Shown here: piece by piece, positions 6,006 through 17,712 of the stretch
Position numbering within the stretch: position 1 is the first letter of the stretch
How the letters are laid out: the number at the start of each line of letters is the position of its first letter
DNA from: Mycetocola manganoxydans
GTDB lineage: Bacteria; Actinomycetota; Actinomycetes; Actinomycetales; Microbacteriaceae
NCBI RefSeq assembly: GCF_003667545.1
Contig: NZ_RCUV01000003.1
Location: 124,001-188,000, forward strand
Reading direction: 5' to 3'
DNA length: 64,000 nucleotides
The notes under the pieces: model-generated
Told to the model about the DNA's origin: nothing
Database searches by the model: none
Seen by the model: only the letters and a program-made list of their open reading frames with translations
Made by a program: the position numbers and the translations under genes

Positions 6006-6869
6006 TCACCTTGACGGATCGCGGCGAACCCCCGCCTGACGCAGAACCCGCTCGGCAGCCCGCACCATCGCGACGTCGATGAATGTGCCATCGTCGAGCA
6101 CGAATGCACCGGTGCCGTCGGCAGCGGCGAAACGGACGCGGTCCACGATGTGTTGCGCGCGTGCAATGTCCGCTGTATCCGGTGTGAAGACCGTGCGGAT
6201 GACCTCGAGCTGGCGCGGATGCACAGCGGTTCGCCCGGCGAAACCGAGCGCTCGGCCAGCACGGCAACTCGCGTCCAGGCCATCCAGGTCGGCAACGTCG
6301 GCAAAGACGGCCATCAAGGGCGCAGGAAGCCCAGCCGCTGCGGCGGCATTGACGATGCGGCTGCGCGACCAGGACAGGCCCGCCTCCCCTTCCTGCCCGG
6401 CGGGTACGCCGAGTTCGGCGCGGAGATCGGCCTCACCGGTTGCGATCGAGGAGACACCCGAGCAGGCGATCTCGAACGCGCGCTCGATGGAGATCGCCGA
6501 CTCGAGCAGAGCGTGCACCTCGCGGCCCGGCAGCGCGGCACGGAGCGTTGCGACATCCTCGGCCGATTGGGTCTTCGGCAAGCGCACGCCGAACGCGATC
6601 GGGAGTCCGGTGATCGCCGCCAGATCGGCGTCGTGTGCGGGCGAACCCGATCCGTTGACGCGTACCTGTACCGTGGGTGCCCGTTCGCCGCGGGCCTCCC
6701 ACTTCGCGGCGAAGTCGCTCAGCGCCGCCCGCCCATCTGCTTTCCGCGAGGCGGCGACGGCATCCTCAAGATCGACGATGACGGCATCCGCCCCGGCGTC
6801 GAGTGCCTTGTCGAACCGCTCCGGTCGGTCTGCCGGAGCGTAGAGCGCGACCATGGTCAATCGAGTCAT
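6006..6869 (-). CDS. HpcH/HpaI-type CoA-ester lyase (CitE-like)
   Basis: This 287-residue TIM-barrel protein of the citrate-lyase beta/malyl-CoA lyase group cleaves or forms C-C bonds in acyl-CoA esters. Family motifs are present: VIVDLEDAV near residue 30, the arginine strand VQVRVNGSG, the metal Glu in ALLESAISIERA and the Asp in ATGEADLRAELG. It is the last gene of the ten-gene LacI operon. Its ATG overlaps the TGA of the CoA-transferase by 4 bases. Coupled to that enzyme it could cleave a CoA-activated product of the imported compound; the exact reaction is inference. Confidence 0.82.
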   Translation of the reverse strand: MTRLTMVALYAPADRPERFDKALDAGADAVIVDLEDAVAASRKADGRAALSDFAAKWEARGERAPTVQVRVNGSGSPAHDADLAAITGLPIAFGVRLPKTQSAEDVATLRAALPGREVHALLESAISIERAFEIACSGVSSIATGEADLRAELGVPAGQEGEAGLSWSRSRIVNAAAAAGLPAPLMAVFADVADLDGLDASCRAGRALGFAGRTAVHPRQLEVIRTVFTPDTADIARAQHIVDRVRFAAADGTGAFVLDDGTFIDVAMVRAAERVLRQAGVRRDPSR

Positions 6870-8053
6870 GCGATGCTCCCGTCAGCACGCAGGGCAGCGA
6901 GCTCGTCGTCGGTGTAGCCCAGTTCGACCAGCACGGCGTCGGTATCCGCACCGTGCGCCCGTCCGGTGAACGCGATGGTCGCGTCATCACGCGAGAGCCG
7001 GAACAGCGGTCCCTGCATGGCGATCTCGCCCAGGTCGGCATCGTGGATGCGGTGGATCGTTCCGAGCGCATTGAATTGCGGGTCGGCGACGATGTCGGAC
7101 GGATCATAGATCGGCGCGACCGCTGCTTCTGCTTCCTCGAACACTGCGACGACCTCATCGCGCGAGTGCTGCGCGATCCAGCCGCCGACGGCGTCATCGA
7201 GGAGGTCCGCGTGCTCGGCGCGAGTCGCCCCGCTTGCGAACCACGTCTCATCCGCGAGTTCTGGCCGGCCCACGAGAGCGACGACACGCTCAGCGATCGA
7301 CTGAGCGCTCGTCGAGACAGCGACCCACGATCCGTCGGCCGTTCGATACGCGTTACGAGGTGCGTTGTTGACCGATCGGTTCCCTGTCCGTGGCTGCACC
7401 GTGCCGAGTTGATCCCACCGGGTGATCTGCGGACCGAGCATGGCGAGGATGGGCTCGATGATGGCAACGTCGATTTCCTGGCCGACGCCGTCTCGATCTC
7501 GCGCATGCAGGGCGACCATGATGGCGTACGCCGTTGCGAGCGACGCCACCCCGTCCGCGAGCCCGAAGGGAGGAAGAGTCGGCGGGCCGTCGGGTTCACC
7601 GGTGGACGACGCGAACCCGCTCATTGCCTCCGCAAGGGTCCCGAAACCCGGGCGGCGGCGGTACGGGCCGATCTGTCCGAATCCGGTCACGCGGGCGAGC
7701 ACCAATCCGGGATTCTCGGCGGAGAGTGCGGCGTAGTCGAGTCCCCAGCGCTCGAGGGTGCCCGGGCGGAAGTTCTCGATCACAACGTCTGCGGTTTGTG
7801 CCAGCCGAAGGAACGCATCCCGGCCACCGTCGGTGTGCAGGTCGATCGCCACGGTGCGCTTGTTGCGACCGAGCGTCTTCCACCAGAGGTTCTGGCCGTC
7901 CTTGCTGGGTCCGTGACCGCGCGCAGGGTCAGGTCGGTTCGGATGCTCGACCTTGATGACGTCGGCACCCATGTCGCCGAGGTGCATCGCAGCCATGGGG
8001 CCGGCGAACAGCGTCGACGCGTCGACCACGCGCACTCCGTCGAGCGCACTCAC
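6866..8053 (-). CDS. CaiB/BaiF family CoA transferase
   Basis: This 395-residue class III CoA transferase moves CoA between carboxylic acids. The N-terminus (LDGVRVVDASTLFAGPMAA), VIKVEHPNRPDPAR, WWKTLGRNKR and VIENFRPGTLERWGL are family signatures. The nucleophilic Asp is probably in GLADGVASLATAYAI. The GTG at 8053 is chosen because it begins the conserved N-terminus and overlaps the previous stop by 4 bases (GTGA). The frame is open for 86 more codons upstream, but that part lies over the previous gene. The operon position suggests it activates an acid made from the transported substrate. Confidence 0.87.
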   Translation of the reverse strand: MSALDGVRVVDASTLFAGPMAAMHLGDMGADVIKVEHPNRPDPARGHGPSKDGQNLWWKTLGRNKRTVAIDLHTDGGRDAFLRLAQTADVVIENFRPGTLERWGLDYAALSAENPGLVLARVTGFGQIGPYRRRPGFGTLAEAMSGFASSTGEPDGPPTLPPFGLADGVASLATAYAIMVALHARDRDGVGQEIDVAIIEPILAMLGPQITRWDQLGTVQPRTGNRSVNNAPRNAYRTADGSWVAVSTSAQSIAERVVALVGRPELADETWFASGATRAEHADLLDDAVGGWIAQHSRDEVVAVFEEAEAAVAPIYDPSDIVADPQFNALGTIHRIHDADLGEIAMQGPLFRLSRDDATIAFTGRAHGADTDAVLVELGYTDDELAALRADGSIA

Positions 8054-9987
8054 GACGCATCCTCTCGACAGATCCGGAAGCCGATTGACGGCGACGCATC
8101 CTGGCCGAGCCCGGGCAGGAGCAGCTTCGCGGTGAACTCCGGAGGCTTCACCCCGCCGTCGAAATACCAGTCCGAACCCACACTGCAGTGGGCGCTGCCG
8201 CCCTTGAGCATGACGAATCGCGAGCGGCCATCTGAATGCTCCGACTCGGTCCAGTTCCACACTTCCGGCATCCTGCGAGTGAAATCCTGCTGGGTTGCGG
8301 CGAGTTGCCACTCGTCCTCGGTGGGAAGCCGGCCGCCTGCCCAGGCCGCGTACTCCCTGGCGCGCGTGAATGTCACGTTCGTCGCTGGGCGTTCGGGGTC
8401 GCGGGCATCCGCGACCTCGCCGATCGCTTCGAGGAAGCGGGCGTACTCAGCTTCGCTCACCTCCGAGGCGGCAACCTGCACGGGCCGCGCAACAACAACC
8501 ACCCGGTCGATGGTCCGCTGGTCGTGCAACCGGGGAGGCAGCGGCTTCCACTCGTCGACGTAGGGCGCACCGTCGTACATACCGGTCTCTCTCATCCGGT
8601 ATCGCACGGTAAGCGTGTGTTCGCCGGCGGGTACCTCGACGGGGCGGTCCCAGACCGATTCATCGTGCACGACCGGCCCGTTCCACCGGGGTGCGTCGAG
8701 ACGCCGGGAGGTGCGGTGCCGGAACGACGCGTCCCGGTCAGCGGTTTGGCCAGCGAGGGCGGCCTGCGCAATCCCGAGCTCCTCTGGCGCTGGAGTTCCG
8801 TGGCTGATCTGCACGGCCCCGGCGATTCCGCCTGCGGGCACCGTGATCGCGTCGGCGGTGTCGCCGGCGTGAAGCGGAGACCATCGTGCGCCGGAAGGAA
8901 CGTACACGGCGTCGTCGTTCGCTGTGTTGGCGAGGAGCAGCACGGTCACACCGTCCAGCTCGAAGGCGGAACCGACGACGCCGCCCTCGTGCACGGCGAG
9001 GGGCGTCCACGCTCCCTCCACGAGCCAGCGATGGAATTGACGCTGGACAGGAAGCATCCGGCGCAGCGTCGCGGCATCCCGGTCGTTCCACCCGACCCAG
9101 GCACCGAAGACGACCTCCCACACCATGACCCCGACACCGTTCAGCCAGGCGGATCGAAGTTCGGCAGCATGGTCGCGGTGCCAGCGGCGGATGTGATGCT
9201 GCATGTGGCGGCGCTCGAACCACCGGGCGCGAAGGACGCCCGGGGTCTCGGAATCGGCAAACCATTGGGCCCACGAAAGCGTATGGTCGGCGATCCGCTC
9301 GGTTGCGAGCTTCGACTCCCCTTCGAGGCCGACGCCTTCTCGTGCAGCGTCGAGTGCTGCGACGAGCTCAGGATCGGCCTTCTTGAGCGTGTCGAGGAAG
9401 ACGCCATCCGCGCCGATTCGGCGCACGGTCGTGGCGAGTTCGGTCGCGTCATCGCCCGCTCGACGTGTCCCCGTGTCCCACGGGTTGTAGTCGAGGAACA
9501 CGGCAACACCCGCTGCACGCAAGACCGCGGCGACGTCGGCAAGCCCTGGCACCTCGTAGAAGTCCCACTGATTGCGATCGTCGATACCGATCACTGGATA
9601 CGCGTGCCACAGCACGATTCCGTCGAGACCTCCAAATCGCTCCTGGGCATCAGCGAGAAAACGCTCAGGGGTGAAACGCTGGGTTTCGAAGTCGAAGAAC
9701 AGTTCGTCCCACAGCCAGGTCTGCGCCACGGTGAAACAGCTGCTTGCCCAAGCCGACGCAGGGTCGGCGTAACGGGTGGGCTCTCCGTGGCGTCGTCTCG
9801 CGCCGTCGCGCCACGCAGCGAGTTGGGCGCGCCACCGGTCGAAGTCGGCCGGGTCGGCCGGCGCCGCAAAGATCTTGGCGTCGTCGAGAACAGTTGCCGC
9901 GTCCCCCTCGGAGAGATCGACGTCGAGGGGAACTCGCGTGGGCAGATCCAGCTCGCGGGGGTGAAGGGGGTCAAAACCGCCGCTCAT
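8050..9987 (-). CDS. Fusion: hydrolase-like TIM-barrel region plus FGE-sulfatase-like domain
   Basis: This is a 645-residue cytoplasmic protein with no signal peptide. Residues about 80-330 look like a glycoside-hydrolase-type barrel, with strands DGIVLWHAYPVIG, VAVFLDYNPWDTGT and ADGVFLDTLKKAD. A beta-rich linker follows. From about residue 490 it resembles the formylglycine-generating enzyme/SUMF1 domain (AEYARFLEAIG, AAWAGGRLPTEDEWQLAA, LKGGSAHC, SIGFRIC). The second copper-binding Cys of true FGE, five residues after the first, is Asp here, so sulfatase activation is unlikely. It overlaps both neighbours by 4 bases. I do not recognise a characterised homologue. A role in cleaving or binding the imported glycoside is inference. 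Confidence 0.72.
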   Translation of the reverse strand: MSGGFDPLHPRELDLPTRVPLDVDLSEGDAATVLDDAKIFAAPADPADFDRWRAQLAAWRDGARRRHGEPTRYADPASAWASSCFTVAQTWLWDELFFDFETQRFTPERFLADAQERFGGLDGIVLWHAYPVIGIDDRNQWDFYEVPGLADVAAVLRAAGVAVFLDYNPWDTGTRRAGDDATELATTVRRIGADGVFLDTLKKADPELVAALDAAREGVGLEGESKLATERIADHTLSWAQWFADSETPGVLRARWFERRHMQHHIRRWHRDHAAELRSAWLNGVGVMVWEVVFGAWVGWNDRDAATLRRMLPVQRQFHRWLVEGAWTPLAVHEGGVVGSAFELDGVTVLLLANTANDDAVYVPSGARWSPLHAGDTADAITVPAGGIAGAVQISHGTPAPEELGIAQAALAGQTADRDASFRHRTSRRLDAPRWNGPVVHDESVWDRPVEVPAGEHTLTVRYRMRETGMYDGAPYVDEWKPLPPRLHDQRTIDRVVVVARPVQVAASEVSEAEYARFLEAIGEVADARDPERPATNVTFTRAREYAAWAGGRLPTEDEWQLAATQQDFTRRMPEVWNWTESEHSDGRSRFVMLKGGSAHCSVGSDWYFDGGVKPPEFTAKLLLPGLGQDASPSIGFRICREDAS

Positions 9988-10916
9988 GCCTGTGTCCTCT
10001 CGGTCAATGCGGCGACCTCCGCTGCTGACGGCACCGCGTCCTGCGCACCCGGGCGGGTAACAGCGATCGCGGCCGCAGCCGCCCCTGCCCTGGCTGCGAC
10101 TTTAAGCAATGACATATCGACGCTCTGGGGTGCGCGTCCGGATGCTGCAAGGGCAGCGGCGAACATTCCACAGAAGGTGTCGCCCGCGCCGGTCGTGTCG
10201 ACCGCGTCTGCAGCGAAAGCCGCAATGTCGGCGCGCTCTTCTCCGCACACGACGAGCGATCCGCGACGGCCGAGGGTGACGACGAGCGCGCGTACGAGTG
10301 GTGCGAGCGCCGTCACCGCCGCCTCGAGGTCGTCGACGTCGGTGATGTCGAGCGCCTCATGCTCGTTGACGATGAGCACATCCACCGAGGCAAGCAGCGC
10401 TGCCCTGGCCGAGTGGAACGGCGCCGACGGTGCGGCATTGAGAAGGTGCCAGGTCTGGGCGCCGCGGGCGGTGGCGGCATCCTGTACCAGAGCGACGGGA
10501 ATTTCCAATTGTGTGAGTACGACACGTGCCGTTGACACGAGCGAACGCTGAACTGGCGTCAGAGCGGTGGCTGCCGCGTTGGCGCCGGGCACGACAACAA
10601 TGGTGTTGTCTGCGGTGTCGTCCACCGAGATGAACGCCATGCCGCTCGGTCCTTCGACCTGCGACAGCCCGGAGACGTCGACGCCGTCAGCGACGAGGGC
10701 ATCCCGAAGGTTTTCCCCCTCCGGGTCGGTTCCCACAGCCCCGACGAAGGCGACGGATGCTCCTCCCGCCCGACGGGCAGCGACGGCCTGGTTCGCGCCC
10801 TTTCCTCCACCGGTGCGCACCAGCGAGGACGCGAGTACCGTTTCGCCCGGGGCTGGAATCCGGCGGACGCGCGTGACGACGTCCTGATTGATGCTGCCGA
10901 CGACGACGACACTCAT
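9984..10916 (-). CDS. PfkB-family sugar kinase, ribokinase-like
   Basis: This 310-residue kinase is predicted to phosphorylate ribose or a similar pentose with ATP. GSINQDVV at the N-terminus and GGKGANQAVAA near residues 37-47 are ribokinase substrate-site motifs. DTTGAGDTFCG near residue 245 holds the anion hole and catalytic Asp. The length is normal. It overlaps the fusion gene and the preceding ADP-ribosylglycohydrolase-like gene by 4 bases each. Next to two (ADP-)ribosyl-hydrolase-fold proteins, a free ribose-type sugar is a sensible substrate; that is inference. Confidence 0.85.
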   Translation of the reverse strand: MSVVVVGSINQDVVTRVRRIPAPGETVLASSLVRTGGGKGANQAVAARRAGGASVAFVGAVGTDPEGENLRDALVADGVDVSGLSQVEGPSGMAFISVDDTADNTIVVVPGANAAATALTPVQRSLVSTARVVLTQLEIPVALVQDAATARGAQTWHLLNAAPSAPFHSARAALLASVDVLIVNEHEALDITDVDDLEAAVTALAPLVRALVVTLGRRGSLVVCGEERADIAAFAADAVDTTGAGDTFCGMFAAALAASGRAPQSVDMSLLKVAARAGAAAAAIAVTRPGAQDAVPSAAEVAALTERTQA

Positions 10917-12280
10917 GACATTCCCTTCGACAGGCGAAGCGTACGGTCAGCCAGCTCCCGGATGGAACGCTCCGCACCTCCGGGCATCGAGGTCGAGATT
11001 CGATCTTTCAGCGGCCCGGTCCACGCCTCACCGATTCCTTCGGCACCGACGAGTCCGCCGACCACGGATCCGACGGTCGCGCCGACCGAATCGGTATCCC
11101 ATCCGCCGGCGACGGCAAATGCGATGGCGGCGCCGAAATCGTCGCCATACGCCTCAAGAGCGCAGGCGGCGAGCGCCGCATTGTTGAGCGTGTGCACCCA
11201 GTGCATCCCCTCGAAGGCAGAATGCAGGGAGTCGAGCGCTGAGTCTGCGGTCAATCCGCCCGTGGCGAGTGAGCGGCCCGTTTCCCGTCCCAGGCGAACG
11301 GCGACGGCAAGGCGGGAATCCGGCGGCACGACGGTGTCTGCAGCATCCAGGGCCTCGCCGGCGGAAGGGGCGACGAGCGACGCGGCGCACAGCGCGGCAG
11401 CCCACATCTCGCCGTAGATGCCGTTGCGGGTGTGACTGAGTCGCGCGTCTGTCCATGCCGATGCCGCAGCGGCACGCACATCGCCCGGGTGCGCCCAGCC
11501 ATGCACATCGGCACGGATGAGAGCGCCGATCCATTCGCGGAACGGGTTGTGATGTTTCGCCGTGTCCGGGATGGACCGCGCGTCGAGGATGTTCCGGTAC
11601 GCCGCACGCTCGGCGGTAAAGACCCGGCCAGCGGGGAGGGCGCCCAGCCACGCTTCGGCTATGTGCTCGGTCGTCAGGTTCGCGCCATGGGTCTCGAGCA
11701 GCTGGAGCGCGAGGATCGGGAAGTTGAGATCGTCATCCTCGGGCATCCCGTCGATGTTCTCCACGAGGGAGGTCGGTGCCGAGCGACGGTTCCAGGGCCA
11801 CCGATTCCCGATGTCCGGGGAAAGACCGACTGCGGTGAAGTACGTCCGGATCGGCCAGTTCCCTGTCGAACGAGCGATCTCCTCAATGCCCCTGCGAGGA
11901 ATCTTCTCGACGGGCTTGCCGAGCAGACACCCGGCGGACCGGCCAAGCCACGCTCCATGCACGCGAGCGAACGCAACGGACACCTCGCCCGGGGATGAAA
12001 CGGCGGGGAGCAGCGCGGTGATATCGGACCACTCGTCCGGCTCCTCGGAGCTCGGCGTCTGCAGGGCCTGCAATTCGTCAAGCACTGTGCGCGCCAGAGC
12101 GCGCACCTCAGGTGGAGCGGGCACTGCGCTTGCCCCCGAGGGCGCGAGCGCAATCGATCCGCCCCCGTTCGCCCATCGCCGTTCGATGGGAGCGATCTCG
12201 CTCTCCTCGACGCCCTGCTCGCGCAGGGCGGCGAGCTCGGCGGGGACCAGGTCTTCGGGTTGCGCCCACGTCAACCTCAC
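10913..12280 (-). CDS. ADP-ribosylglycohydrolase-family protein, second copy
   Basis: This 455-residue protein has the all-helical ARH/DraG fold signatures. Two metal-binding clusters are visible: MPEDDDLNFPILALQ in the middle and GGWDTDSVGATVGSVVGG near the C-terminus. About 120 N-terminal residues precede the fold (GAWLGRSAGCLLGKPVEK) and have no recognised domain. The GTG at 12280 is chosen because it overlaps the previous stop by 4 bases (GTGA); upstream codons lie inside the preceding gene. The family hydrolyses N- or O-linked (ADP-)ribose. In a catabolic sugar operon the substrate is more likely a small ribosylated or other glycosylated compound than a modified protein. Confidence 0.8.
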   Translation of the reverse strand: MRLTWAQPEDLVPAELAALREQGVEESEIAPIERRWANGGGSIALAPSGASAVPAPPEVRALARTVLDELQALQTPSSEEPDEWSDITALLPAVSSPGEVSVAFARVHGAWLGRSAGCLLGKPVEKIPRRGIEEIARSTGNWPIRTYFTAVGLSPDIGNRWPWNRRSAPTSLVENIDGMPEDDDLNFPILALQLLETHGANLTTEHIAEAWLGALPAGRVFTAERAAYRNILDARSIPDTAKHHNPFREWIGALIRADVHGWAHPGDVRAAAASAWTDARLSHTRNGIYGEMWAAALCAASLVAPSAGEALDAADTVVPPDSRLAVAVRLGRETGRSLATGGLTADSALDSLHSAFEGMHWVHTLNNAALAACALEAYGDDFGAAIAFAVAGGWDTDSVGATVGSVVGGLVGAEGIGEAWTGPLKDRISTSMPGGAERSIRELADRTLRLSKGMS

Positions 12281-13446
12281 GCCGCGGTCTCCCGGCCCAG
12301 CACTGTTGCAAGTGCCGCCGCTCGCTGCGTCGCGCGGTCGGCATCCGCTCGTGCGACGTCGCGGACGACGTCCGTCATGGAAGCCACCACGCCGTCGAGA
12401 TCGAGCCGACTGGCCGTTGTGACGCCGGAGACCCATTCGCTCGGGACGGCGTCGTAGCCGGAGAGGCCGCCGCAGATGGCACCGGCCATCGTCGCGATCG
12501 AGTCGGAGTCACGCCCGTAGTTCACAGCGTCGAGTACCGCCGCCCGCAGATCCCCGTCCCGGGCAACGACGAAGCCCAGCGCGACCGGAAGCTCCTCGAT
12601 CGACTTGGTGCGTGACGGGAGCCTGGCGTCCATCGCCGGCGCGCGGTAGTGATCGCCCACCGTGTCGAACGGGGCGACGGCAGTGCGCACGATGCGAGCG
12701 AGGTCACGGGGATCATCCGATCCACCGGCGCCCATGAAATCGTCGACGGCGTCGAACACGGCGCGGATCGCCGCGGCGGTGCCATCGTGAGCGACGTCCA
12801 GTACGGCAGCGCGAACATCAGCGATGGTCGCGCCGGGGGCTGCGGATGCCGCCACCGCAGCCGCGAACACTCCCGCTGCTTCACGCCCATACGACGACTG
12901 GTGCGCGCCGGCGATGTCAATCGCCTCGGCGTATGCACCGCGCGCGTCACCGATGTGCACGAGCCCGACGGGTGCCATGTACATCGTGGCCCCACAGTTG
13001 ACGATGTTGCCGACGCCCGCCTCGCGAGGGTCGGCGTGGCCATAGTGCAGCTTCGCGACGATCCACTTCTCGGCGAGAAAGACACGCTGCAGGATGAGTG
13101 CATCGTCCTCGAGTTCGGGAACCCAGCGTCGTTCGCCGATCATGAGCGGGACCAGGTCGCCGGCGACGTCGTACGCGTCGAGGTGACGACGTCGTTTGGC
13201 GTATACCTCCACGAGCGCGTGCGTCATGAGGGTGTCGTCGGTGACGTGCCCATCACCCTTGTGGTACGGGGCAATCGGCCGCGCTGTCTTCCAGTCGGCA
13301 AGGAACGGCCCAACGATTCCCTCGACTCGACCGCCGTGACGCTCTTCGATTTGATCGGGGGTCCACCCCTCGGTCGCCCCTCCCAGGGCGTCTCCCACTG
13401 CGGCTCCTGCGAGCACTCCGGCCACTCGATCCTGCAACACGAACAT
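12277..13446 (-). CDS. ADP-ribosylglycohydrolase-family protein, first copy
   Basis: This 389-residue protein has AAVGDALGGATEG at residues 15-27, the metal-site T69-D70-D71 (HVTDDTLMTHAL) and GRDSDSIATMAGAICGG near the C-terminus. All are diagnostic of ARH/DraG hydrolases that use two magnesium ions. AAGGAG lies shortly before the ATG. A stem-loop at 13480-13507 separates it from the binding-protein gene. The two family members in this operon are only distantly alike, so they may act in sequence or as a heteromer. Confidence 0.84.
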   Translation of the reverse strand: MFVLQDRVAGVLAGAAVGDALGGATEGWTPDQIEERHGGRVEGIVGPFLADWKTARPIAPYHKGDGHVTDDTLMTHALVEVYAKRRRHLDAYDVAGDLVPLMIGERRWVPELEDDALILQRVFLAEKWIVAKLHYGHADPREAGVGNIVNCGATMYMAPVGLVHIGDARGAYAEAIDIAGAHQSSYGREAAGVFAAAVAASAAPGATIADVRAAVLDVAHDGTAAAIRAVFDAVDDFMGAGGSDDPRDLARIVRTAVAPFDTVGDHYRAPAMDARLPSRTKSIEELPVALGFVVARDGDLRAAVLDAVNYGRDSDSIATMAGAICGGLSGYDAVPSEWVSGVTTASRLDLDGVVASMTDVVRDVARADADRATQRAAALATVLGRETAA

Positions 13447-13515: not shown

Positions 13516-14811
13516 TCAGCCGGCGATGTCGGCCCAGCCGTCGGACAGCTGAGCGGCGAGCTGCTCGCTGGTGATCTCATTGGCCAGGTACTGCTGGAAG
13601 GCCGGCGTCGCGATCGTGTCTTTCCACTCGGTGTACTTTTCCACCTTGAGGAACGGCGGTCCGACGAGACCATCGCCTGATGCCAGCACCTGAGTCCAGG
13701 CGGGGTTGTCCGCCGCCAGTTTCTCCACCTCGGCGCGCGCCGCGTCAGACGACGGGATGAGCGCGTCGGCGTAGGCGATCTGGGCGAGGTTGTCGCCGGC
13801 CATGAAGAAGTTGAGGAACTCGGCGGATTCTTCAACGTACTCGGAATCGATGTTCACTGAGTACGTCTGCGGGTTCGCTGCCTGGATAGCGCCTTCGGAG
13901 CCTTCAAGCGGGGGCAGAGCCACCCAGTTGAAACCTTCCGGAGCATCATTGGCGATGTTCGTCGCCTGGAATGAGCCCTGCACGGTCATCGCGACCTTGC
14001 CGCCGTAGAACGAGGCGAGCACCTCTGATCCCGACTGGGTCAGGGAGGTGGGATCGACCGACTTGTCGGTGTACGTCATCTCGTGGACCAGCTCAGGCAC
14101 GGCGAGTTCCGCGTCGCCGACCTCGATCGAGGCGTCCTCGCCCTCACCCGAGAAGAAGGTGCCGTCGAAGCCGAGCGCGAGGCTCATCATCGCCGCAGTC
14201 GGCGACCCGAGTCCCCAGCCCAGGCCGTGGGCGTCGCCGGTTGTGGTCGCCTTCGCGATCTCCTGAAGCTCATCCCACGTCATCGAGTCCCCGGTGGGAA
14301 CCTCGACGCCGGCGGCCTCGAGAAGGTCGGCGTTGGCGAACGCCATGTAGGACTGCAGCGTCGACGGGTACGCGATGATCTCGTCGTTCTGGGTGACAGA
14401 GTCCCAGATGCCCTCGGAGATGTCTGCTTTCAGGTCGCCATCGATGTAGTCGGTCAGATCGGCGAGATAGCCGTCGGCCGCGAAGGAGACGATCGAGCTT
14501 GCCTCATAGTGGATGATGTCCGGTGCCGTTCCGCCGGTGAACTGCGTAACGAGCTTGTCGAACGTCCCGTCCCATCCCGCCTGGACGATCTTGACCTGGA
14601 CGTCGGAGTTCTCCGCGTTCCAGTCGTCGACGATCGCCTTGACGGCCGCTTGCGTCGCCGGCTGGTCGGACAGCGACTGAAACTGAAGCGTGACTGCACC
14701 GTCGTCGCCTCCGTCGCCGCTGTTGGTTGCGCTGCCTTGCTGGCATCCGCTCAGGACGAGGACTGCCGCGCCCGCGAACGCGACGGCTCCAATGCCTCGG
14801 ATTCTCTTCAT
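13516..14811 (-). CDS. Sugar ABC transporter substrate-binding lipoprotein (family 1)
   Basis: This 431-residue extracellular binding protein has a lipoprotein signal ending LVLSGC, with the modified Cys at residue 23. A Gly/Asp-rich linker and an SBP_bac_1 domain follow (LQFQSLSDQPATQAAVKAIVDDWN, GTAPDIIHYEASS, AMTVQGSFQ, NPQTYSVNI). It delivers a carbohydrate-like ligand to the two permeases encoded just upstream in the operon. AAAGGCGAG precedes the ATG. The ligand cannot be read from the sequence. Confidence 0.9.
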   Translation of the reverse strand: MKRIRGIGAVAFAGAAVLVLSGCQQGSATNSGDGGDDGAVTLQFQSLSDQPATQAAVKAIVDDWNAENSDVQVKIVQAGWDGTFDKLVTQFTGGTAPDIIHYEASSIVSFAADGYLADLTDYIDGDLKADISEGIWDSVTQNDEIIAYPSTLQSYMAFANADLLEAAGVEVPTGDSMTWDELQEIAKATTTGDAHGLGWGLGSPTAAMMSLALGFDGTFFSGEGEDASIEVGDAELAVPELVHEMTYTDKSVDPTSLTQSGSEVLASFYGGKVAMTVQGSFQATNIANDAPEGFNWVALPPLEGSEGAIQAANPQTYSVNIDSEYVEESAEFLNFFMAGDNLAQIAYADALIPSSDAARAEVEKLAADNPAWTQVLASGDGLVGPPFLKVEKYTEWKDTIATPAFQQYLANEITSEQLAAQLSDGWADIAG

Positions 14812-14853: not shown

Positions 14854-15693
14854 TCAGCCTTTGACTGCGCCGGCGAGCATTCCGCCGGTCAGCTTCTTCT
14901 GCAGGATGCTGAAAATGATGAGCGACGGGATGGTCGCGAGGATCGCGCCTGCGGCCAGCGGTCCGAGCTGGGTCTGTCCTTCGGCACCCAGGAATGAGCG
15001 CAGGGCGATCGGCAGCGTGTATAACTCCGGACTCTGCAGCAGCACAAGAGCCAGGAAGAACTCGTTCCACGCCGAGACGAAGGTGAACATCGCCGTCGCA
15101 ACGAGACCGGGGGCGAGAAGAGGAAGAACGATCGTCCGCAGAATGGTGATGCGTGACGCGCCGTCCATCTCTCCCGCTTCTTCCAGCTCGGTCGGAATCG
15201 CCGCGACGTAACCCTGCAGCATCCAGAGTGTGAATGGCAGCGTGAACGTGACGTAAACCAGGATGAGGCCGAGAAGGGTGTCGTTCAGGCTGATGGCACG
15301 CAGCACCAGGAACAACGGGATGATGATGAGGATCGATGGGAACACCTGACTGGTGAGAATCCACACAGTTCCCGCGGCTCGCAGGCGCCCTTTCAGGCGA
15401 GCCAGCGCATAGGCCATCGGCATTGACAGGAGCACCGTGATCACCATCGTCGCGATCGAGACGAAGAGCGAGTTGCCTGCCGCGAGCAGCAGGTTCTGGC
15501 GTTCGAGGGCCGCACCGAAGTTACTGAAGTCCCACTCCGCTGGCAGGAGATTCACGGCCAGCGAGTTCAGCTCTCCGCTCGATTTGAACGAGGCGGACAG
15601 CAGCCACAGCAGCGGAAAACCAAGGAAAAACAGGAACATCGCGAGTGCTGCATACATCAGCACCGTTGCGTACCAGGGGCGCTTCATGGTCAT
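14854..15693 (-). CDS. Carbohydrate ABC permease, MalG type
   Basis: This 279-residue inner-membrane permease has six hydrophobic helices and the EAA loop (ELEEAGEMDGASRITILRTIVLPLLAPG region), which docks the ATPase. The C-terminus (LTGGMLAGAVKG) is typical of CUT1 MalG proteins. It overlaps the MalF-like gene by 4 bases. No ATPase gene is in the operon, so a shared MsiK-type ATPase encoded elsewhere is expected, as is usual in actinobacterial CUT1 systems. Confidence 0.92.
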   Translation of the reverse strand: MTMKRPWYATVLMYAALAMFLFFLGFPLLWLLSASFKSSGELNSLAVNLLPAEWDFSNFGAALERQNLLLAAGNSLFVSIATMVITVLLSMPMAYALARLKGRLRAAGTVWILTSQVFPSILIIIPLFLVLRAISLNDTLLGLILVYVTFTLPFTLWMLQGYVAAIPTELEEAGEMDGASRITILRTIVLPLLAPGLVATAMFTFVSAWNEFFLALVLLQSPELYTLPIALRSFLGAEGQTQLGPLAAGAILATIPSLIIFSILQKKLTGGMLAGAVKG

Positions 15694-16622
15694 GCGCGTG
15701 ATCCCTTCGACTGGCGGAACTGATTGACGAGATAGAGCGACAGGATGAGCATGATGGCGATCACCAGCACGTCGCCCATCGCCGACGCGTACCCGATCTC
15801 CCGGTTACGGAAGGCCTCGAGGTACGTGAACAGCGGGGGGATCATCGTGCGCCCTCCCGGGCCTCCTTCGGTGAGTACGTAGATGAGTCCGAAGGAGTTG
15901 AACTGCCAGATGAAGTCGAGCGCCGTTACGGCGATGATGATGGGGCGCAGGCTCGGCAGGGTGATGTGCCAGAAGCGGCGGATCGCGCCTGCACCGTCGA
16001 CGGCCGCAGCCTCGTGCTGCTCTGCCGAGATCGACTGCATGCCGGCAAGCAACAGCACGGTGGTTTGAGGGATGCCTGACCAGACGCCCACCACGATGAC
16101 CGCCGGGAGGGCTGTCGAGAAGTCGCCGAGCCAGTTGACGCCGGGAATCCCGAACACTTCGAGCGCGCCGTTGAGCGGACCCGAGTTGGGGTTGTAGATC
16201 ATCCGCCAGACGATCGCGATCACGACCGGTGGCATCGCCCACGGGATCAGCGCCAGTACGCGGGTGAGCCCCTTCAGCCGTAGGTCACTGTTGAGCAGCA
16301 GCGCGAGTGCCATCGCGCAGACGAGGGTCAGAAGCGCCACCGACCCGGCCCAGACGATGCCGATCCCGAAGGATCCCCAGAAGCGGTGATCGCCGAGAAG
16401 TTCGATGAAGTTGCCGAACCCGATGAAGTTGATTTCGGCGTTGCGTTTCAGCGTGGCATCCGTGAAGCCGAGGGCCACACCGCTCGCGAGGGGGATGACG
16501 GAGAAGATGATGATCGGCAGCAATGCTGGGATGACGAGCGCTACCGCCTCACGGCGCTGTGCGCGGGCACGATGACCGACCCGCTTCGTCTGCCGCGGGA
16601 CCTTTGTGGCGACACTGCTCAT
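15690..16622 (-). CDS. Carbohydrate ABC permease, MalF type
   Basis: This 310-residue permease has six transmembrane helices after a basic N-terminus and the EAA motif EQHEAAAVDGAGAIRRFWHI. LTEGGPGGRTMIPPLFTYLEAF is a CUT1 MalF signature. The ATG overlaps the repressor stop by 4 bases. With the MalG-like partner and the lipoprotein it forms an importer for the substrate of the operon. Confidence 0.92.
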   Translation of the reverse strand: MSSVATKVPRQTKRVGHRARAQRREAVALVIPALLPIIIFSVIPLASGVALGFTDATLKRNAEINFIGFGNFIELLGDHRFWGSFGIGIVWAGSVALLTLVCAMALALLLNSDLRLKGLTRVLALIPWAMPPVVIAIVWRMIYNPNSGPLNGALEVFGIPGVNWLGDFSTALPAVIVVGVWSGIPQTTVLLLAGMQSISAEQHEAAAVDGAGAIRRFWHITLPSLRPIIIAVTALDFIWQFNSFGLIYVLTEGGPGGRTMIPPLFTYLEAFRNREIGYASAMGDVLVIAIMLILSLYLVNQFRQSKGSRA

Positions 16623-17692
16623 CCGGCTGCCCTCTCTTCGCCGAGCCCTGTGGCTTCGGTACTGCGGTCGGCCGGAGATGCGTGGCCCTGTGTGTTGGGG
16701 CGGTGAACCGATGATCCACGCACAACCAGCGACGGTGCGACGGTGACGGTATGCGCAGCACGAGACGGTTCAGCGATGCGGGCAAGCAGGAGTTCGGCGG
16801 CAACGCGGCCGCGCTCCTCTGCTCCGAGATCGACGCTCGTCAGTCCAGGCCTGACCACTCCTGCGAGCTCCGTGTTGTCAATGCCGGTGACGACGATTTC
16901 GTGCGGGACCCGCAGTCCGAGGTCTTCGGCCGCTCGAATGGCACCGATGCCGATCAGGTCGTTCGCGGCGACGATGGCGTCAGGACGCCGGTCGCCCTCG
17001 AGAACCTGGCGTGCGGCGGCGTACCCCGCCGAGATCGTGAAGTCCTCGGCATCGACGCTGCGCGTCGTGAGAAGCGGGTGCGCGAGAACGGCCGCGGCGA
17101 AGCCATCGCGGCGAAAAGCGCCTGGGGTCGTGTCGACGGGTCCGTTCACGAAGGCGATGTCCCGGCGATCCTCGGCAACCAGGTGACCGACGACGAGACG
17201 CATCGCCGTGAGCGAGTCTGCACGGACGGTATCGAGGTTCACGTCGTCAGGCAAACGGCCGAGCACGACGACAGGTGTCGGTGTCTTGGCGAGTGCGGTG
17301 AGCAGTTCGTCGGTGACCCGGAGCGGCGAGAGGATCATGCCGTCGACATAACCGCGTCCGAGGTCGCGCACGACGTCGACCGACGATGACGAGGTGCCCG
17401 TCGACGAGAGGACCAGGCGGTAACCGGATGCGGAGACCACACGCTCGATCGCGCTCATCATTTCGACGTAGACCGGGTTGCCGATGTCGGCAACGGCATA
17501 GGCGAGCTGTTTCGTGCGGCCGCGTTTGAGGGACTGTGCCGTCGCATCGGCGACGTAGCCGAGTGTGGCGGCCGCGTGTTGCACCTTCGCGACCGTCTCC
17601 GCGCTCGCGATCTGGCCGTTCAGCGCCCGTGAGGCAGACGCCACGGAGACGCCGGCATGAGCGGCGACCTGGGTGATGGTGACACGAACCAA
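16619..17692 (-). CDS. LacI-family transcriptional repressor
   Basis: This 357-residue regulator has an N-terminal helix-turn-helix (ITQVAAHAGVSVASASRALNG), the hinge and a periplasmic-binding-protein-like effector domain (LAYAVADIGNPVY, PDAIVAANDLIGIGAIRA, GIDNTELAGVVRPGLTSVD). A TTG start at 17692 is chosen because AAAGGAG lies 4 nt upstream and no ATG or GTG begins the HTH. An open frame reaching 18286 is not coding. It is the first gene of the ten-gene operon. The operator-like palindrome at 17713-17726 suggests autorepression and control of the whole operon. Confidence 0.9.
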   Translation of the reverse strand: MVRVTITQVAAHAGVSVASASRALNGQIASAETVAKVQHAAATLGYVADATAQSLKRGRTKQLAYAVADIGNPVYVEMMSAIERVVSASGYRLVLSSTGTSSSSVDVVRDLGRGYVDGMILSPLRVTDELLTALAKTPTPVVVLGRLPDDVNLDTVRADSLTAMRLVVGHLVAEDRRDIAFVNGPVDTTPGAFRRDGFAAAVLAHPLLTTRSVDAEDFTISAGYAAARQVLEGDRRPDAIVAANDLIGIGAIRAAEDLGLRVPHEIVVTGIDNTELAGVVRPGLTSVDLGAEERGRVAAELLLARIAEPSRAAHTVTVAPSLVVRGSSVHRPNTQGHASPADRSTEATGLGEERAAG

Positions 17693-17712
17693 GGCTCTCC
17701 TTTGAGCGGAAC

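Follow-up and report, generated by a model that had tools for sequence, protein, structure and literature searches.

The fold of FGE (SUMF1), the formylglycine generator whose copper site is built from a pair of cysteines, also occurs in proteins that do without these cysteines. SUMF2, a paralogue of FGE that occurs as a stand-alone protein in the endoplasmic reticulum of animals, has a Cys-less version of the fold, and in EgtB, SenA and OvoA an FGE-like domain without copper cysteines forms part of the active site, together with an iron-binding DinB domain. In the retaining alpha-glycosidases of glycoside hydrolase (GH) families GH13, GH101 and GH129, the catalytic residues sit at strand ends, with the nucleophile Asp on strand 4 and the acid/base Glu on strand 5, and GH13 enzymes carry an Arg two residues before the nucleophile. 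Here we describe a gene from Mycetocola manganoxydans, called X, which lies in a 64,000-nucleotide stretch of contig NZ_RCUV01000003.1 (the window, in whose positions all coordinates are given) and which draws on both groups: its product joins a predicted TIM barrel and beta-sandwich, as found in GH13 and GH129 enzymes, to a C-terminal FGE-like domain, as found in EgtB, SenA and OvoA, a group with sequence matches to X. With FGE it shares the PF03781 fold family, the RLPTE.EW core and the KGGS and GFR landmarks, and with SUMF2 the absence of the cysteines, SUMF2 being however a protein of its own.

On balance we take X to act in the cytosol as a glycoside hydrolase-like enzyme, with a Cys-less FGE-like domain that would bind the substrate or form a cap over it; this substrate is probably a hydroxy-acid glycoside. 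The fusion and the gene cluster around it are real, widely conserved and apparently undescribed. A match to X at E <= 1e-20 was present in 20 of 394 genomes drawn evenly from the class (the window's own genome counted), and conservation was analysed in 103 full-length aligned sequences, comprising X itself, 22 from the genome search and the best 80 of 373 relatives. At least two pairs among these represent the same gene twice (L002/L100 and L003/L045); left out of the alignment were L006-L015, which matched in the FGE domain only, L001, which is the window itself, and L034, the second piece of the L033 gene. A profile search of 396 genomes from the phylum, in which four candidates per genome were scored, returned the window's own gene alone and is no real negative. 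The parts of X are as follows.

8050..9987, minus strand: gene X, a fusion of a GH-like TIM barrel, a beta-sandwich and a Cys-less FGE-like domain; one open frame, 645 amino acids, ATG start
9118..9732, minus strand: TIM barrel, strands 1-8, residues 86-290; predicted by AlphaFold2 and matched by fold
9391..9393, minus strand: codon of Asp199, directly after strand 4, proposed nucleophile
9316..9318, minus strand: codon of Glu224, the final residue of strand 5, proposed acid/base
8806..9012, minus strand: beta-sandwich closing the hydrolase part, about residues 326-394, from the strands of the AlphaFold2 model
8515..8634, minus strand: residues 452-491, the stretch of highest conservation, with which the FGE-like domain is taken to begin
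8065..8514, minus strand: FGE-like domain, residues 492-641, from PF03781 and profile matches
8185..8187, minus strand: codon of Cys601, aligned with the first copper Cys of FGE
8170..8172, minus strand: codon of Asp606, aligned with the second copper Cys of FGE

The FGE and SUMF landmarks that a preliminary description of this DNA had pointed out in the C-terminal part correspond to a match of residues 498-580 to the FGE-sulfatase family PF03781 (E = 1.1e-10; 42 bits, over the cut-off of 23.3). Since the same family was matched by all 65 sequences scanned (X and 64 homologues picked from the 103; best E 4.8e-22), the likeness of X to FGE is more than chance, and a chance resemblance was rejected. 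Profile matches of the domain included structures of FGE, SUMF2 (1y4j), CalU17 and EgtB. X gave the only PF03781 hit in the 3.06-Mb genome, which is 99.99% complete and in which no second FGE domain was found. Nor did that genome contain any hit to the sulfatase family PF00884 at E <= 0.001, which extends to the whole genome the earlier remark that no sulfatase gene lies nearby; a control search with PF00884 was positive in 10 of 14 known genomes, in nine of them over the cut-off.

The preliminary description was exact in placing a Cys (Cys601) at the end of the motif GGSAHC and an Asp (Asp606) five residues further on. Across the 103 aligned sequences position 601 is Cys in three (the window's, L021 and L094), Val in 19 and Arg in 48, among them L002, a homologue 84% identical to X; position 606 carries an acidic residue (Asp or Glu) in 94 and Cys in none. 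The copper pair is thus absent from all 103 sequences, and also from the homologues in Spirosoma and Sphingopyxis, in contrast to the ten FGE-family genes from eight relatives' genomes (L006-L015), where GGSxxCx4C is kept in every case. The FGE core is also shorter in the X family: between the landmarks RLPTE and VW it spans 20-31 residues (median 23), counted by alignment column, in the 103 rows, against 71-75, measured by motif, in the ten FGE genes, a difference of about 50. Both an active FGE and a half-decayed copper site were rejected, the former by the lack of the pair and the latter by the sporadic occurrence of Cys601. No examined member has a copper site, and the lone Cys601 of the window is, judged by these comparisons, a sporadic and incidental substitution and no conserved remnant. 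The earlier statement that the second copper cysteine is lacking therefore holds for the absence of the pair and fails where it implies a half-lost site. The proposal that the domain, which unlike FGE stands behind a barrel, is no formylglycine generator and represents a repurposed fold is supported by the missing Cys606, the intact pair of the relatives' FGE genes, the shortened core and the lack of a sulfatase hit, and homologues with both cysteines were not found among the sequences examined.

Public records name the homologues at L177:13863-16037 and L178:3298-5433 'SUMF1/EgtB/PvdO family nonheme iron enzyme'. Taken at its word, this name implies that the domain is still oxidative, with one Cys or another metal, and such a function could draw on the Pfam match above the gathering score, on the profile similarity to EgtB, SenA and FGE, and on the invariance of K595, G596, G597, W607 and Y608, which together with G636, F637 and R638 are identical in all 103 sequences. 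We consider it highly improbable: Cys is as scarce at 601 and 606 as described above, the curated equivalog models were missed by far (SenA, 42.5 bits against a cut-off of 420; EgtB, 31.4 against 360), the FGE core is short by about 50 residues, and X, which differs from EgtB and SenA in having a barrel, gave no DinB hit (PF03781 alone at E <= 0.1). The name 'nonheme iron enzyme' is on this reading of the sequence misleading and finds no support there.

The barrel that the preliminary description had placed in the N-terminal half is present in the predicted structure. An AlphaFold2 model of residues 22-401, built from an alignment of 65 sequences picked from the 103 for spread, reached a predicted local distance difference test score (pLDDT) of 91 and a predicted template modelling score (pTM) of 0.91; it shows a barrel of eight strands and, after it, a beta-sandwich. 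With this model Foldseek found 435 matches in the PDB at E <= 0.001, and the 50 matches listed were mostly of the amylase or glucosidase type, with fucosidases, a 3,6-anhydro-galactosidase, a GH30 xylanase and CD98hc among them; no GH101 or GH66 entry occurred in these top 50, which excludes nothing. In structural alignment with VIA-align, amylase-type GH13 and GH129-type structures ranked close together at the top: 1g1y (Z 21.0; 330 residues aligned; root-mean-square deviation, rmsd, 4.0), 5opq (Z 20.1; 320; rmsd 4.2), 8rzk, titled ZgGH129 (Z 19.6; 317; rmsd 4.2), and 5wzr, NagBb (Z 18.3; 298; rmsd 3.7), the family numbers being those we take these structures to have except where a title names the family. 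The suggested comparison with GH families thus gave a nearest fold, of the GH13 or GH129 type, and no family by sequence.

In the model strand 4 ends at residue 198, directly before D199, and strand 5 ends at E224. Both acids are present in all 103 sequences and kept in a seven-sequence alignment across three phyla, which includes one homologue each from Spirosoma (Bacteroidota) and Sphingopyxis (Alphaproteobacteria). Since this is the placement known from the retaining alpha-glycosidases of GH13, GH101 and GH129, D199 is likely to be the nucleophile and E224 the acid/base.

The median identity to the window's protein runs, from the N- to the C-terminus, from 0.53 (residues 22-73) and 0.73 (74-310) through 0.36 (311-401) and 0.29 (402-451) to 0.825 (452-491) and 0.55 (492-641), with RETGMYxGAPYVDEWKPLPPRLH as the consensus of the 452-491 stretch. 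Because the highest conservation falls at the presumed start of the FGE-like domain, the pattern suggests a role of this domain in shaping the active site. The pocket of the domain is rebuilt and strongly conserved (RETG...EWKP...H, KGG...WY...GFR), and its most likely function is to bind the substrate or to close over the barrel. A full-length AlphaFold2 model, built with 17 sequences, had a mean pLDDT of 75.7. No signal peptide is evident on X by eye, no predictor having been run, which agrees with the earlier description.

X lies within a cluster of ten genes on one strand, with a regulator, two permeases, a binding protein, two ADP-ribosylglycohydrolase-family genes and a kinase upstream, and a family III CoA-transferase followed by a CitE-like lyase downstream.

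16619..17707, minus strand: LacI-type regulator (start approximate; the open reading frame, ORF, runs to 18286); PF00356 and PF13377
15690..16622, minus strand: permease A of an ATP-binding cassette (ABC) transporter; PF00528; best NCBIfam models UgpA and MalF, below cut-offs
14854..15693, minus strand: ABC permease B; PF00528; best NCBIfam models GlcU and MalG, below cut-offs
13516..14811, minus strand: sugar-type solute-binding protein; PF01547, E 8.1e-32
12277..13446, minus strand: ADP-ribosylglycohydrolase-family protein b (overlaps ORF a as listed); PF03747, E 7.9e-44
10913..12436, minus strand: ADP-ribosylglycohydrolase-family protein a (true start probably inside the ORF); PF03747, E 2.2e-39
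9984..10916, minus strand: PfkB kinase, ribokinase-like; TIGR02152, 244.4 bits against a cut-off of 299.65, hence not an equivalog by that test
6866..8053, minus strand: CoA-transferase family III (start approximate; ORF to 8311); PF02515, E 1.1e-117
6006..6869, minus strand: CitE/HpcH-type CoA-ester lyase; PF03328, E 3.4e-29; RipC, 138.6 bits against a cut-off of 375

We compared this arrangement with that of the 80 loci closest to X, a choice by which distant contexts are under-represented, and counted the 70 that extended 9 kb or more upstream and 3.5 kb or more downstream, leaving out ten shorter ones. All ten genes were found in the same order and on the same strand in 61 of these 70, and seven more had the other nine genes without the kinase. 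L105 lacked the kinase and had the regulator moved, and L069 lacked five genes. Within the locus itself, the ribokinase-like gene was unmatched in nine of the 70 (L037, L040, L041, L067, L069, L080, L097, L102 and L105); L120, from a genome of 1.8 Mb, likewise had the other nine genes and no kinase. We infer that the cluster is transcribed as one operon.

The two ADP-ribosylglycohydrolase-family proteins are the sole PF03747 hits in the genome. In protein a the motif WDTDS is present in all 78 rows and EDDD in 77, the remaining row having a gap, and protein b has TDDT and GRDxDS in all 76; since these acidic motifs are kept, both proteins are probably active. Additional genes of this family were seen in two relatives with large genomes: L121 has four, the two extra ones (both PF03747) preceding the usual two at L121:14720-16964, and L118 has at least one more before the usual two, at L118:3373-4533, with a 31% match to protein a.

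Outside this arrangement, X is found in other company. The Spirosoma (L177) and Sphingopyxis (L178) homologues are plasmid-borne and 32% identical to the window's protein; their FGE-like domain is longer, with the YPWG stretch kept, and Pfam recognised PF03781 alone in them. A GH28 gene adjoins X in Spirosoma and a GH36 gene lies near, and an export signal was judged present there by eye; in a remote homologue, L119 (44% identical), a GH3 gene adjoins X and a GH67 gene lies near. The Sphingopyxis locus holds a block of ribokinase, X, a GH127-type enzyme and CoA-transferase, in which the kinase is 43% and the CoA-transferase 30% identical to those of the window, and a methylisocitrate-lyase-like gene lies on the opposite strand. 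The GH127-type enzyme belongs to another Pfam family than X and occupies the place that the ADP-ribosylglycohydrolase-family genes have in Actinomycetota. X is thus linked with a ribokinase and a CoA-transferase in another phylum too, though in a single locus and with a weak identity between the CoA-transferases. The same GH127-type enzyme (Sphingopyxis sp. FD7, L178:5438-7228) showed a weak match to aceric acid hydrolase, of 83 bits against a cut-off of 950.

These contexts bear on the idea that the operon reverses or salvages ADP-ribosylation, taking up or processing ADP-ribose-type compounds with the assistance of X. The two ADP-ribosylglycohydrolase-family genes, with their kept acidic motifs and their standing as the only ones in the genome, the four in L121 and the ribokinase-like gene would all suit such a role. 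The importer genes, however, are closest to maltose, glucose and glycerol-phosphate systems; in Sphingopyxis X stands beside a GH127-type enzyme, with no ADP-ribosylglycohydrolase annotated there in an incomplete gene table and no match in that stretch to either of the window's two proteins; and neither a CoA-transferase nor a CitE-like lyase is known to take part in the salvage of ADP-ribose. We therefore regard this idea as improbable.

The upstream genes suggest the import of a glycoside that contains a pentose, and the sequences of the downstream genes suggest that a hydroxy-dicarboxylic acid would be turned into a CoA ester and then cleaved. In the simplest story that uses all the genes, X would make one cut in a pentose-containing glycoside of a hydroxy-dicarboxylic acid. 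The ABC importer would take up the glycoside, X and the ADP-ribosylglycohydrolase-family enzymes would cleave its glycosidic bonds, the ribokinase-like enzyme would phosphorylate the pentose set free, the CoA-transferase would make the CoA ester of the freed acid, and the CitE-like lyase would split that ester. Among NCBIfam models the CoA-transferase scored best with succinate-glutarate (229 bits), formyl-CoA (206) and mesaconate (205) transferases, and the lyase with RipC, of itaconate degradation (139), and CitE (121), all far below curated cut-offs; among solved structures the transferase matched CaiB/BaiF, formyl-CoA and succinate-hydroxymethylglutarate transferases. Among relatives of known structure, neither the binding protein nor the ADP-ribosylglycohydrolase-family enzymes had an informative one that could hint at the substrate. 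As a tentative proposal, rather less likely than not, X would found a new GH family with a disarmed FGE-fold domain as part of its active site, and the ten genes would form a new catabolic pathway; the ADP-ribosylglycohydrolase-family enzymes would serve there as ordinary furanosidases that cleave an imported hydroxy-dicarboxylic acid glycoside.

Several observations weigh against this interpretation of X and its cluster. Pfam gave no GH family for the barrel, either in X at E <= 0.1 or among the 65 members scanned, where GHL6, Melibiase_C and Malt_amylase_C each matched a single member (E 0.024-0.035). The alpha-amylase family PF00128 matched neither X at that threshold nor appeared among the families listed for the 65, and no Pfam hit was obtained to a GH129 or GH101 family model, although GH129-type structures fit the fold at Z 18.3-20.1 and rmsd 3.7-4.2; NCBIfam and profile searches gave no GH family for the barrel either, so that the likeness to GH13 and GH129 enzymes comes without a detected sequence relation. 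An hhalign comparison of the barrel alignment with 20 GH13 and eight supposed GHL6 proteins aligned neither, a weak test (effective number of sequences, Neff, 2.5) in which some of the GHL6 picks were possibly wrong reading frames. If D199 is the nucleophile, Phe197, two residues before it and identical in all 103 sequences, replaces the Arg of GH13, and we do not file X under that family for this reason; the two acids were moreover placed from the predicted model. Since CD98hc, a non-enzymatic protein with a GH13 fold, is among the fold matches, sharing the fold is no proof of activity. Model confidence is low at residues 468-487, inside the most conserved stretch, in the full-length model. 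Formyl-CoA/oxalate-type transferases score nearly as high as dicarboxylate ones, all far under the cut-offs, so the identity of the acid is a guess. None of the other nine window proteins matches in the stretches around L119 or Spirosoma L177, so X also works outside the cluster, and conserved gene order is uninformative on activity.

Some of these points would suit a barrel that acts on the same substrate other than by hydrolysis (as transglycosidase, lyase or isomerase), or one that is catalytically silent and serves the two ADP-ribosylglycohydrolase-family enzymes as a binding scaffold. The missing GH assignment and non-enzymatic fold matches such as CD98hc fit this, as do the many residues conserved besides the two acids (H128, R138, Q140, E258, H261, H264 and E276 in all 103 sequences, and R268 in at least 97%). 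A silent scaffold, however, is hard to reconcile with the invariance of D199 and E224 in the 103 rows and in one homologue from each of two other phyla, and a scaffold for the ADP-ribosylglycohydrolase-family enzymes with the occurrence of X where those genes are missing (L119 and L177); neighbours from glycosidase families in four different contexts also count against this alternative. We regard it as rather unlikely.

The listed open-access titles and abstract beginnings contain no description of the cluster or the fusion; a description or a family number may nevertheless exist. If the proposal is right, naming of the 'nonheme iron enzyme' type has hidden a pathway that is spread over many soil and plant-associated Actinomycetota, and with it both a new family of hydrolases and a novel function for ADP-ribosylglycohydrolase-family enzymes. 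The conserved cluster makes the substrate findable through ordinary growth and induction tests.

Finally, ARAGORN found no tRNA or tmRNA genes in the window (1-64000). Near the downstream end of the cluster, 17 loci, including L048, L050, L053 and L055, contain an esterase-like ORF that looks secreted by eye, mostly at about 14 kb in locus coordinates; the search for recurrent genes also gave many shadow reading frames.

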